Virus record (IMG/VR): IMGVR_UViG_3300005589_000070
Location: 1-34,682 of that record
Reading direction: 5' to 3' (one strand)
DNA length: 34,682 bases
Source: a virus
Shown: positions 17,833 to 24,402 of the stretch, piece by piece
Layout of the letters: every line of letters starts with the position of its first letter
How positions within the stretch are numbered: position 1 is the first letter of the stretch
Notes under the pieces: generated by a model
The model's database searches: none
Told to the model about the DNA's origin: nothing
Seen by the model: the letters and a program-made list of their open reading frames with translations, nothing else
Position numbers and translations under genes: made by a program

Positions 17833-17874
17833 GTCATGGCCAAAGATTGTTTGGTAATTAGAGAGGTTTCACTT

Positions 17875-18270
17875 ATGCAGCAACATAAATTCAGCCAGTC
17901 CAGCCTAAATAAGCTTGCTCAGTGTGACGATGATTTGCAACGTGTCGCACACATGGCCCTGAAGTACTCAAAATATGATTTCGGCATTAGTGAAGGGATT
18001 CGAACTATTGAGCGCCAAAAGGAAATGATTGATCACGGAAAGTCTCAGACAATGAATAGCCGGCACTTGCCTAACGATTACGGTGTTAGTGAGGCTATCG
18101 ACATCAAGATTTATCGCAATGGCCAAATTACGTGGGATCCAAAGTACTTCCGTAAAGTTGCCGGTGCATTCTTCAAAGCAGCCTTTGAGCTTGGTATCCC
18201 TATTGAGTGGGGCGGTCATTGGGAGAGCTTGTTTGATGGCCCTCACTTTCAACTGTCTAAGAAGGTGTGA
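17875..18270 (+). CDS. Endolysin, M15-family L-alanyl-D-glutamate peptidase
   Basis: Cuts the peptide stems of peptidoglycan during lysis. The 131-aa product has the Peptidase_M15_4 zinc site: SRHLP (62-66, His64), SEAIDIKIY (72-80, Asp76) and DGPHFQL (121-127, His124), with EWGGHW in between. Start at ATG 17875 is preferred over ATG 17836 because AGAGAGG lies about 8 nt before it and the earlier ATG would follow the -10 box too closely. No signal peptide is seen, so a holin is needed for export. The next gene is a membrane protein of holin type. Confidence 0.9.
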   Translation: MQQHKFSQSSLNKLAQCDDDLQRVAHMALKYSKYDFGISEGIRTIERQKEMIDHGKSQTMNSRHLPNDYGVSEAIDIKIYRNGQITWDPKYFRKVAGAFFKAAFELGIPIEWGGHWESLFDGPHFQLSKKV

Positions 18271-18272
18271 TT

Positions 18273-18782
18273 ATGGACTGGCTAAAGAAACTTGCAGGTT
18301 ATGCGCCTGATATAGTAGGGGCTATTGTTAGCGGTGGAGCAACGCTTCCAGCAACCGCCATCCGTATAGCATCAAAAGAACTTCTTGGCTACGAGACGGA
18401 TGACCAGAACGTACTAGCAAAGGCCGTTGAGGCAGCAACTCCAGATGAGATGCTTAAGCTAAATCAAGCCAACAACAACTTTGTAATAAGAAAACTTGAG
18501 CTGCAAAACGAGGAAATGGCAAGCGCTAGGAAGTCATACGCAACAAACCATAAACAGGCCGACGATATAGCTAAAAGTGTAATGCGATTTAATGTTATAT
18601 ACGTTGTCTTGGTTGCGCTCGCTCAAATCGCCGCAATAACTCTTACCGAGCTCCCAGATGCTGCAGTGGTTGTTATAGGAAATGTCTGTGGATGGATAAT
18701 TAAAGGGCTTCTTGATGAGCGAATACAGGTTTGTGGCTTTTATTTCGGTTCGAGTATTGGAAGTAAGACAAAAGACAAATAA
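18273..18782 (+). CDS. Holin-type membrane protein (3TM-like, 169 aa)
   Basis: ATG 18273 lies 2 nt after the endolysin stop with AAGAAGG ahead. The N-terminal helical part (IVGAIVSGGATLPATAIRIA, then LAKAVEAATPDEMLKLNQAN) precedes a charged linker and two or three membrane segments between about residues 100 and 155 (FNVIYVVLVALAQIAAITL and AVVVIGNVCGWIIKGLL). This layout fits the gene-transfer-agent-like 3TM holin family. It probably releases or activates the endolysin. A strong terminator follows. Confidence 0.7.
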   Translation: MDWLKKLAGYAPDIVGAIVSGGATLPATAIRIASKELLGYETDDQNVLAKAVEAATPDEMLKLNQANNNFVIRKLELQNEEMASARKSYATNHKQADDIAKSVMRFNVIYVVLVALAQIAAITLTELPDAAVVVIGNVCGWIIKGLLDERIQVCGFYFGSSIGSKTKDK

Positions 18783-23187: not shown

Positions 23188-23732
23188 TAAGACCTTAGCA
23201 AGCTTAAAGCAAGCCAAGCATTTTGTTTGTTTTTGCAAATTCGCCATATATTCTTACCGCCGCATCATCGTAGGCTTTCGCTGCATCTTTTATGTCATCG
23301 TAAACACCTAGATAAACACGCTTCTTATTATCTTTAATCTGGGCGTGCCATTTCCCGCAAGACTTGTTCCAAGTCACCCCTTTGTAACCGCTGGTGTTAG
23401 CCTTATTAATCCCAGTATTGGCATTATTCTGACTCTGATTGCAAGGCCTTAGGTTTTCTATAGCGTTGTTTTCCGGGTTGCCATCAATATGATCTATGTA
23501 GTTCGGATCCTCACCTGTAGACAACCAGTAAACAATTCTATGGTATGTATTTTGATACTTTCCATGAAGGACAATATCGTAACCATCACTATGCTTTGTT
23601 AAGGACATCTTTTTACCGTCATTTCTAACTAAAACACCGTCAACAAGTGATAAGCTATCAACGGCATAGGACATACTCATTCGCCCACTTCTCATAAAGT
23701 TTCCTTTTAACAATAAGGTCAATTAAGACCTT
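23188..23732. repeat. 9-bp direct repeats flanking the second HNH gene
   Basis: TAAGACCTT occurs at 23188-23196 and 23724-23732, just outside the two ends of the HNH-AP2 gene. Downstream of the HNH stop a short open stretch reads KVLDELLPKGK and ends in TAA overlapping the methyltransferase ATG. The repeats may mark the insertion of the endonuclease gene, but 9 bp can recur by chance. Confidence 0.35.
23204..23695 (-). CDS. HNH homing endonuclease with AP2 domain (second copy type)
   Basis: Start at ATG 23695 with AAGGA 7 nt ahead. HRIVYWLSTG (52-61), YIDHIDGNPENNAIENLR (66-83) form the HNH core; TSGYKGVTWNKSCGKWHAQI (101-120) and YLGVYDDIKDAAKAYDDAA (128-146) form the AP2 domain. It has the same plan as the 7595 protein but low identity, so the two are separate arrivals, not a recent duplication. 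It probably spreads its own gene into related phages and may cut near this site. Confidence 0.9.
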   Translation of the reverse strand: MRSGRMSMSYAVDSLSLVDGVLVRNDGKKMSLTKHSDGYDIVLHGKYQNTYHRIVYWLSTGEDPNYIDHIDGNPENNAIENLRPCNQSQNNANTGINKANTSGYKGVTWNKSCGKWHAQIKDNKKRVYLGVYDDIKDAAKAYDDAAVRIYGEFAKTNKMLGLL

Positions 23733-24076
23733 GTCCTTGAAATACCAAAGGGTCATTTAATTTAAAAGAATGGATGGTTTAGTATCAGGCCATATTTTAG
23801 ATGTTCGCACATCAGTCCGCTTTCGCTTTCAAGGACACCAAGCTCTGTTTATCGCGTCTTAACGTCAAACGATCCATTCCAGATAAATTGTCTTGTTTGG
23901 TCTCCGGTCAACTCCGGCAGTATGGGCGGATAGCTACTGTAGGCTAAGGTGTGAACTCAGTGAAGAGGCTTAGAAGGGATTTATGCCTGCCGCAGGAGGT
24001 TAGTTGTTATCCTGCTTTGTGCGTTTAAGTCTTCGCTAGACTGCTGCCAGTAACCAAAAGGCCATCTAACAGGCAT

Positions 24077-24217
24077 AAAAAAGGGCTTAGGTAGTAACAA
24101 CCCCGTTTGAAAGAGGGGCACAACCTGACAGACCAAAGCCCACCGAGATTGCTACTAACTAAACCCTCTGTCATTGTTTTCTAAGCGGTCTTTCAACTCC
24201 GCTGCACCAAAAGGTAC
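24077..24217 (-). ncRNA. Candidate structured small RNA with kissing-loop complementarity
   Basis: On the minus strand a promoter (24224-24253) leads into about 140 nt ending in six T residues at 24077-24082. Hairpin 1 has stem 24184-24188/24199-24203 (AGCGG/CCGCT); hairpin 2 has stem 24101-24104/24115-24118 (CCCC/GGGG). Their loops carry perfectly complementary 8-mers (24189-24196 and 24107-24114). A GGGCTT/AAGCCC outer stem (24083-24088 with 24136-24141) precedes the T tract. A competing 14-nt pairing joins 24087-24100 with 24149-24162. A 49-codon ORF (ATG 24172-24174) overlaps but lacks a ribosome site. The rest of the gap, 23733-24076, contains only micro-ORFs. Confidence 0.5.
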
Positions 24218-24223
24218 GTATGT

Positions 24224-24253
24224 ATTATATCAACTCCTTGATCATGTTTTCAA
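24224..24253 (-). promoter_or_regulatory. Promoter for the candidate small RNA
   Basis: On the minus strand TTGAAA (-35, 24248-24253, 5 of 6), an 18-nt spacer and TATAAT (24224-24229, perfect) extended by TGA. It lies at the end of the last gene of the antirepressor operon and has no coding gene directly downstream. Confidence 0.65.
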
Positions 24254-24402
24254 TGTATAACGTAAAAATTATGCGTATATTCATCACCAGTTTCCTCCTT
24301 ACCGTCTTGGCAGTGTGTGACAGCACTCCCATAATCCATTTTTTGCGAGTAATAAGCCTCTCCAGACTCGACCTCGATAATCTCAATCATGTAGCTAATC
24401 AC
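24250..24402 (-). CDS. Hypothetical 50-aa acidic protein, last early-operon gene
   Basis: GTG 24402 overlaps the TAG of the previous gene and has GGAG 7 nt upstream; an ATG four codons later is the alternative. The product includes MIEIIEVESGEAYYSQKMDY and a C-terminal EYTHNFYVIH. It is acidic and soluble with no recognised family. The -35 of the small-RNA promoter overlaps its stop codon. Confidence 0.55.
   Translation of the reverse strand: MISYMIEIIEVESGEAYYSQKMDYGSAVTHCQDGKEETGDEYTHNFYVIH

Follow-up and report, generated by a model that had tools for sequence, protein, structure and literature searches.

GOLLD, a phage-encoded RNA that sits near tRNA islands, is composed of a less conserved 5' region and a 3' region, with tRNAs sometimes contained in the linker (PMC12286853), and ROOL, a phage or prophage RNA also located near tRNA islands, possesses several pseudoknots (PMC12286853). 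The role of such tRNA-linked large phage RNAs is a long-standing question. In phage lambda, 6S is a short RNA between the promoter pR' and the promoter-proximal terminator tR', ahead of the packaging and structural genes, and the 3' end of the non-coding RNA MALAT1 is formed by RNase P at a tRNA-like element, mascRNA. To our knowledge, neither conservation nor a pseudoknot is known for lambda 6S. Lambda Q acts at the late promoter (PMC6606751), and in phage HK022 the put RNA alone controls termination (PMC9378689), acting in cis through the zinc-binding domain of RNA polymerase beta'.

The DNA analysed here (hereafter, the window) is a 34,682-base virus record that encodes NinG, an antirepressor, NinB, an endolysin, a small terminase, a portal protein, a head morphogenesis protein and a large-terminase candidate with a weak match to those families. 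Comparison with related sequences identified its minus-strand segment 24217-24077 as the 5' third of an undescribed modular phage RNA family, which keeps its shape while the sequence changes and often has phage tRNA genes in its middle. A preliminary description had presented this segment as a small self-contained unit running from a promoter to six T; the six T are present, but the conserved unit continues to about position 23713 and comprises two structured domains with a linker, a tRNA or tRNA-like, between them (Table 1). To judge from the sequences, this architecture is near certain: the helices and the loop pairing, the constant promoter, the U-tract, and the occurrence of both domains together.

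Table 1. Positions and sequences of the predicted RNA elements and neighbouring features in the window.
Feature	Sequence	Position	Strand	Basis or remark
Sigma-70 promoter	TTGAAA-18-TG.TATAAT	24224..24253	-	Promoter scoring, 11/12 matches
Optional 5'-terminal hairpin	GUACC-UUUU-GGUGC	24204..24217	-	Sequence comparison
Hairpin H1	Stem AGCGG/CCGCU, loop AGUUGAAAGA	24184..24203	-	Stem covaries
Loop-loop pairing, H1 half	UUGAAAGA	24189..24196	-	Watson-Crick complement in 21/21 distinct homologs tested
Helix P2, 5' strand	ACAAUGACAGA	24167..24177	-	97% of cells paired
Helix P3, 5' strand	GGGUUUAGUUAGUAGCAAU	24148..24166	-	93% of cells paired
Helix P2, 3' strand	UCUGUCAGGUUGU	24120..24132	-	Covariation; P2 crosses P3
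Hairpin H2	CCCC/GGGG	24101..24118	-	Comparison with relatives
Loop-loop pairing, H2-loop half	UCUUUCAA	24107..24114	-	Complement of H1 loop
Helix P3, 3' strand	UUGUUACUACCUAAGCCC	24083..24100	-	Covariation
U-tract directly after P3		24077..24082	-	Intrinsic-terminator-like; 5-7 T in homologs listed
tRNA-like insert	Closing stem UUAUGCCUGUU/GGCAGGCAUAA	23981..24078	-	Arms covary with L098
3' structured domain (type A)		23713..23981	-	Profile matches in L001, L024, L074, L076
Helix P5, 5' strand	GGAAUGGAU	23872..23880	-	Same geometry, seven phages
Helix P6, 5' strand	UGUCCUUGAAA	23827..23837	-	Crosses P5
Helix P5, 3' strand	AUCCAUUCU	23767..23775	-	Same geometry, seven phages
Helix P6, 3' strand	UUUCAAGGACA	23732..23742	-	Pairs with 23837-23827
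HNH (homing-type) endonuclease gene, next co-directional gene		23204..23722	-	Directly behind the RNA in the window

Approximately 25 distinct relatives were collected from marine phages that infect Vibrio or Pseudoalteromonas, from contigs in IMG/VR and from a single Psychromonas MAG contig (L048), and an RNA-family annotation was absent from the records of all of them. A blastn search with 551 bases around the site matched ten Vibrio phage records, in the RNA part only, and the set was grown by walking outward from each relative. The RNA occurs in the Vibrio phages 1.275.O, vB_VaM_H2, BT-1011, Seahorse, 1.240.O, 1.242.O, 1.110.O, 242E40-1, 1.054.O, 1.122.A, NF (two copies) and 1.085.O, together with near-identical sisters, and in the Pseudoalteromonas phages HS2, BS5 and Pq0. 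Common to the relatives are the promoter, H1 and the P2/P3 pseudoknot, with 5-7 T directly after P3 in the homologs listed. A pattern scan of genome contigs returned 49 loci, only L048 being real after inspection; plasmids gave no match to the RNA, and among 395 bacterial genomes of the Psychromonas MAG's order that MAG alone was retrieved, under strict filters that could miss weaker matches. Phage ICP1 makes a transcript of about 800 nt without an ORF (PMC7567579), which was rejected as a relative, a model match being absent (E 0.86).

As the preliminary description, which could name no RNA family for the site, had implied, no family in Rfam 15 scored above its gathering score, and cmscan at permissive E values, up to 10 for positions 23650-24260 and up to 1 for nine other loci, gave no relevant family and no match to the GOLLD and ROOL models. 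An earlier description of the family was not found in the literature searched, in which few subscription papers were covered. The RNA adds a well-supported family, absent from Rfam 15, to the few large phage RNAs tied to tRNA genes.

The proposed promoter was borne out by its scoring and by a TG ahead of the second hexamer. The relatives have an equivalent promoter upstream, with 5-7 nt between the end of the -10 element and H1 in most and a larger distance in those with an extra 5' hairpin. This optional hairpin, which resembles a 5'-protecting cap, separates the start site from H1 in four homologs (the window and, with other sequences, L001, L017 and L076) and is missing elsewhere. The minus-strand RNA 24217-24077 folded better than 200/200 shuffles (z = -3.98). 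The 5' domain, of about 125 nt, contains H1, the P2/P3 pseudoknot and H2, whose loop pairs with that of H1, and ends in P3 and the U-tract.

The stem of H1 varies to GUAG/CUAC in L078 and GCAGC/GCUGU in L048, and in all 21 distinct sequences its loop finds a Watson-Crick partner, 5-8 nt long, within its own RNA. At least nine different loop sequences occur, each with its own complementary partner, and the mean best match was 6.7 with the own partner versus 4.0 with the partners of other sequences; single-sequence shuffle tests were modest (to 0.495 for L004), the strength of the loop pairing coming from the whole set. The exact 8-nt complementarity originally noticed in the window (24196-24189/24114-24107) was upheld, and the compensation between the loops proposed as a test was found in the relatives, where the pairing is re-formed by matching changes. 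Three types of the 5' domain were distinguished: type I, to which the window belongs, has the H2 stem given in Table 1; type II has CCUC/GAGG or CCUUC/GAAGG (L018, L076, L077, L078, L082, L083, L092 and L093); and in type III (L074, L075 and L098) the partner of the H1 loop is shifted into the loop between P3 and P2 with complementarity kept (GUAGGAG/CUCCUAC and GUGAGAG/CUCUCAC). Within type I, GGGC occurs together with GCCCC and GGGU mostly with ACCCC, L024 (GGGU with GCCCC) being the exception. A CRISPR-repeat-like stretch after H1, CUUAGAAA, which looks like a type I-F handle, was dropped as it is not conserved among the relatives.

Helix P2 was overlooked in the preliminary description, while its 14-nt pairing (24162-24149/24100-24087) turned out to be the core of helix P3. 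On a hand-made alignment, biased towards the structure, P2 was 97% paired, versus about 63% with whole strands permuted among the sequences, and showed double changes at 12/12 positions; P3 was 93% paired there, with double changes at 10/18 positions, and 91% paired when MAFFT was used for an independent alignment. Tested on a plain MAFFT alignment, the structure beat all 500 shuffles on four of the five measures as well as all slid controls. Since P2 and P3 cross, the 5' domain is a pseudoknot. In the homologs listed, rearranged types included, GG/CC closes P3 and is followed by 5-7 U, so that the base of the helix directly before the U-tract is G+C-rich as in an intrinsic terminator. The terminator scan reported no compact hairpin terminator at 24077, because P3, the helix before the six T, spans a long loop.

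Two alternative folds had been proposed on the basis of a 6-bp stem (24088-24083/24141-24136) exclusive with the 14-nt pairing. This stem can form in the window but is not conserved across the family: of 13 type I sequences scored, 10 can form it, it is broken in L001, L003 and L008, and its 5' motif is missing from types II and III. A conserved exchange nevertheless exists, in which the 3' strand of H2 can pair instead with 24148-24144 (UCUCG/CGGGG) and extend P3. The overlap between H2 and this extension is kept in nearly all homologs (exception L024, 2 pairs), and the changes, mostly consistent rather than double, support alternative pairing as a feature of the RNA family. The matched variation noted above for type I, at segments 24141-24137 and 24119-24116 and their counterparts in relatives, hints at a further pairing, between the P3-P2 loop and the 5' side of H2.

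In most relatives with continuing sequence, a new element, either a tRNA or a stem-closed insert, begins at the U-tract. The true tRNAs (Ser, Met, Trp, Gly and Val, with Arg in second place) begin 2-4 nt past the Ts, and the other linkers hold an insert of 32-110 nt that is closed by 7-14 bp (UUGUGUCUG/CAGACACAA or a variant) and resembles a degenerate tRNA in several phages; L083, without a clear stem, and L003, with gene sequence at this place, are exceptions. The insert of the window adopts a cloverleaf-like fold with inner arms AGUCU/AGACU and CAGGA/UCCUG, which covary with L098, and ARAGORN found no tRNA in the window, though in relatives this position is taken by true tRNAs. The corresponding insert of 242E40-1 bears the annotation tRNA-Und. 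The arrangement is reminiscent of MALAT1-mascRNA, in that a non-coding RNA is followed by a tRNA-like element with an acceptor-like stem kept, although here the closing stem alone is constant and the likeness comes from sequence only.

The 3' domain comprises 260-330 nt of non-coding sequence, falls by profile search into five partly interrelated sequence types and is not in Rfam. Seven phages, the window included, have two long crossing helices, P5 and P6, whose arm sequences differ at a constant spacing of 39-45 nt between the 5' arms and 35-44 between the 3' arms. The P5/P6 score was equalled by 0/150 dinucleotide shuffles in each of the seven, with a spacing window picked after the helices had been seen; under the same constraint the helices were missing from 3' types C and E and were unconvincing in L002 and L010. 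Type C domains (L008, L018, L048 and L083) contain near their 3' end a conserved GGGGAAAAAGGG that P5/P6 do not explain. The 3'-domain match is weak in 1.110.O (L007). In BT-1011 (L003), the 5' domain is kept and no 3' domain is recognisable within 2.5 kb downstream; a truncated tRNA follows its 5' domain, with homing-endonuclease genes directly behind. Between the 3' end of the window RNA and the next gene, the terminator scan found no terminator-like site, and the short distances from 3' domain to gene arise partly by construction, because the domain end was drawn at the next gene.

A search with a pattern derived from the 3' domain alone yielded nine new contigs. Six of them extend far enough upstream and match the model, and all six have the 5' domain there, identical in three of them and, in another version, in two; L094 and L097 are without the needed upstream sequence. 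In L096 (1-700, minus strand), a divergent 'type IV' 5' part unrecognised by the model has a B-type 3' domain behind it and follows the plan of promoter, H1 loop with a 7-nt complement, 13-bp P3 and six T. The 5' and 3' types also recombine: 1.275.O (type I) and 1.122.A (type III) are 98% identical in the downstream part, and a downstream part is likewise shared between 242E40-1 (type I) and 1.054.O (type II).

In most phages the RNA is co-directional with the structural and packaging genes and lies ahead of or inside them. It is located upstream of the terminase genes in Seahorse, VaM_H2, BT-1011, NF (copy a) and 1.085.O (several kb upstream of the terminase in the window), upstream of the portal gene in 1.054.O, and within the structural genes in Pq0, 242E40-1 and BS5. 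The genes downstream vary by phage (methylases, phosphoesterases, HNH, small proteins), and the HNH gene next to the RNA in the window is not conserved in other phages. Vibrio phage NF (MN812722.2) has copies at about 10.7 kb (L075, type III) and 21.8 kb (L076, type II) on opposite strands; the two copies stand before different gene clusters, one of them ahead of replication genes. A blastp comparison (1e-4) of eight genomes found no protein common to all, which is compatible with a host partner such as RNA polymerase.

We tentatively propose, at somewhat less than an even chance, that folding of the RNA controls termination and readthrough where a late or accessory transcription unit begins. 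Transcription from the RNA's own sigma-70 promoter would produce the 5' domain ending in P3 and the U-tract, a putative promoter-proximal intrinsic terminator; if these terminate, a short RNA would be made by default. P2 and the loop pairing would sequester the strand into which P3 has to invade, and together with the exchange between H2 and the P3 extension they may set the frequency at which the polymerase reads through. Since P3 forms in both alternative states, this exchange alone would not switch the terminator off. Readthrough would give the tRNAs or tRNA-like insert, the 3' domain and the co-directional phage genes, and tRNA expression would need it because the sole promoter seen lies upstream of the RNA. 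The covariation, the at least nine rewired loop variants, the promoter near H1, the U-tract, the domain linkage and the co-directional late genes argue for this proposal, and against it the structure, the 3' domain above all, exceeds the needs of a simple attenuator, and one of the two NF copies lies in the replication region. Of the switchable phage regulatory RNA envisaged in the preliminary description, the structured RNA gene and, in changed form, the alternative pairing stand, but not the extent; a decoy role or control of the operon ending upstream found no support, the anatomy pointing downstream.

Like HK022 put, the present RNA is structured and lies at a phage promoter or shortly behind it; put works without any phage protein (PMC9378689), as the present RNA would. 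Compared by description, put is about 70 nt long, forms two stem-loops, belongs to early operons and has no pseudoknot, loop-loop pairing, end terminator or tRNA, whereas the domain here is about 125 nt long, pseudoknotted and ends in a U-tract. The layout would also parallel lambda pR'-tR', with a short RNA from promoter to promoter-proximal terminator upstream of the late genes, but the eight phage genomes have neither a Q-like protein nor any other protein in common. A broader and less probable proposal is a new large modular RNA class in which two independently pseudoknotted domains enclose tRNAs and govern their release and downstream reading by RNA alone; such a class would be held to architecture rather than sequence and would do without any conserved phage protein. 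The family is modest in size, is present in isolated phages and has a precise covariation model, which makes it an accessible test case for the role of such RNAs and for whether RNA structure controls phage tRNA expression.

Nearly as likely as RNA-controlled readthrough is a large ornate RNA of the GOLLD/ROOL kind that stands alone and acts in trans, late in infection. The 5' region, tRNA linker and 3' region might then constitute one folded, perhaps oligomeric, RNA, and the U-tract might be merely a structural junction or weak stop, each of which we hold possible at about the same level. The anatomy of a 5' region, a linker possibly holding tRNAs and a 3' region in a phage-encoded RNA is that of GOLLD (PMC12286853), two pseudoknots are present as several are in ROOL, the 5' and 3' types recombine freely and the downstream genes differ between phages. 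Against this, neither model matched even at the permissive thresholds given above and homology to GOLLD was undetectable; the length is about 500 nt versus 660-800+ nt (GOLLD often exceeding 800 nt); a near-invariant U-tract lies mid-RNA behind a long helix, after the 5' domain, where the strongest conservation was found here; and the 3' end has no terminator-like site before the next gene. ROOL further differs in layout, and a linker tRNA is not described for it in the part of the source consulted (PMC12286853).

It is rather improbable that the 5' domain alone is a terminated sRNA of 125-140 nt acting in trans on a host RNase, RNA polymerase or mRNAs, and equally so that the tRNA and 3' domain are separate elements sharing the locus by chance. 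Such an sRNA would agree with the own promoter, the terminator-like end and BT-1011, where only the 5' domain was recognised, but the two domains are linked near-constantly across unrelated phages, and loops paired to each other leave little for target pairing. Functionless remnants of decaying tRNA islands or chance hairpins, which the degenerate-tRNA look of several inserts might suggest, are very unlikely given the strong compensatory change in P2, P3, H1 and the loops and the conserved promoter, and for the 5' domain this reading is refuted by covariation. Least probable of all is a 49-codon peptide gene: the ORF is open in the window, but its ATG is unique to the window among the sequences compared and the relatives show indels and compensatory RNA changes, which rules such a gene out, and the ORF conservation that the preliminary description had set against a structured RNA was not found.

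Two annotated hypothetical proteins antisense to or overlapping the RNA region, ANY29572.1 of BS5 (L082) and AKN44297.1 of Pq0 (L083), are probably spurious. In the window, the endolysin gene and a small gene (17836-18782, plus strand), read in the opposite direction, separate the RNA from the terminase genes, and the lysis genes of 1.275.O are placed likewise.
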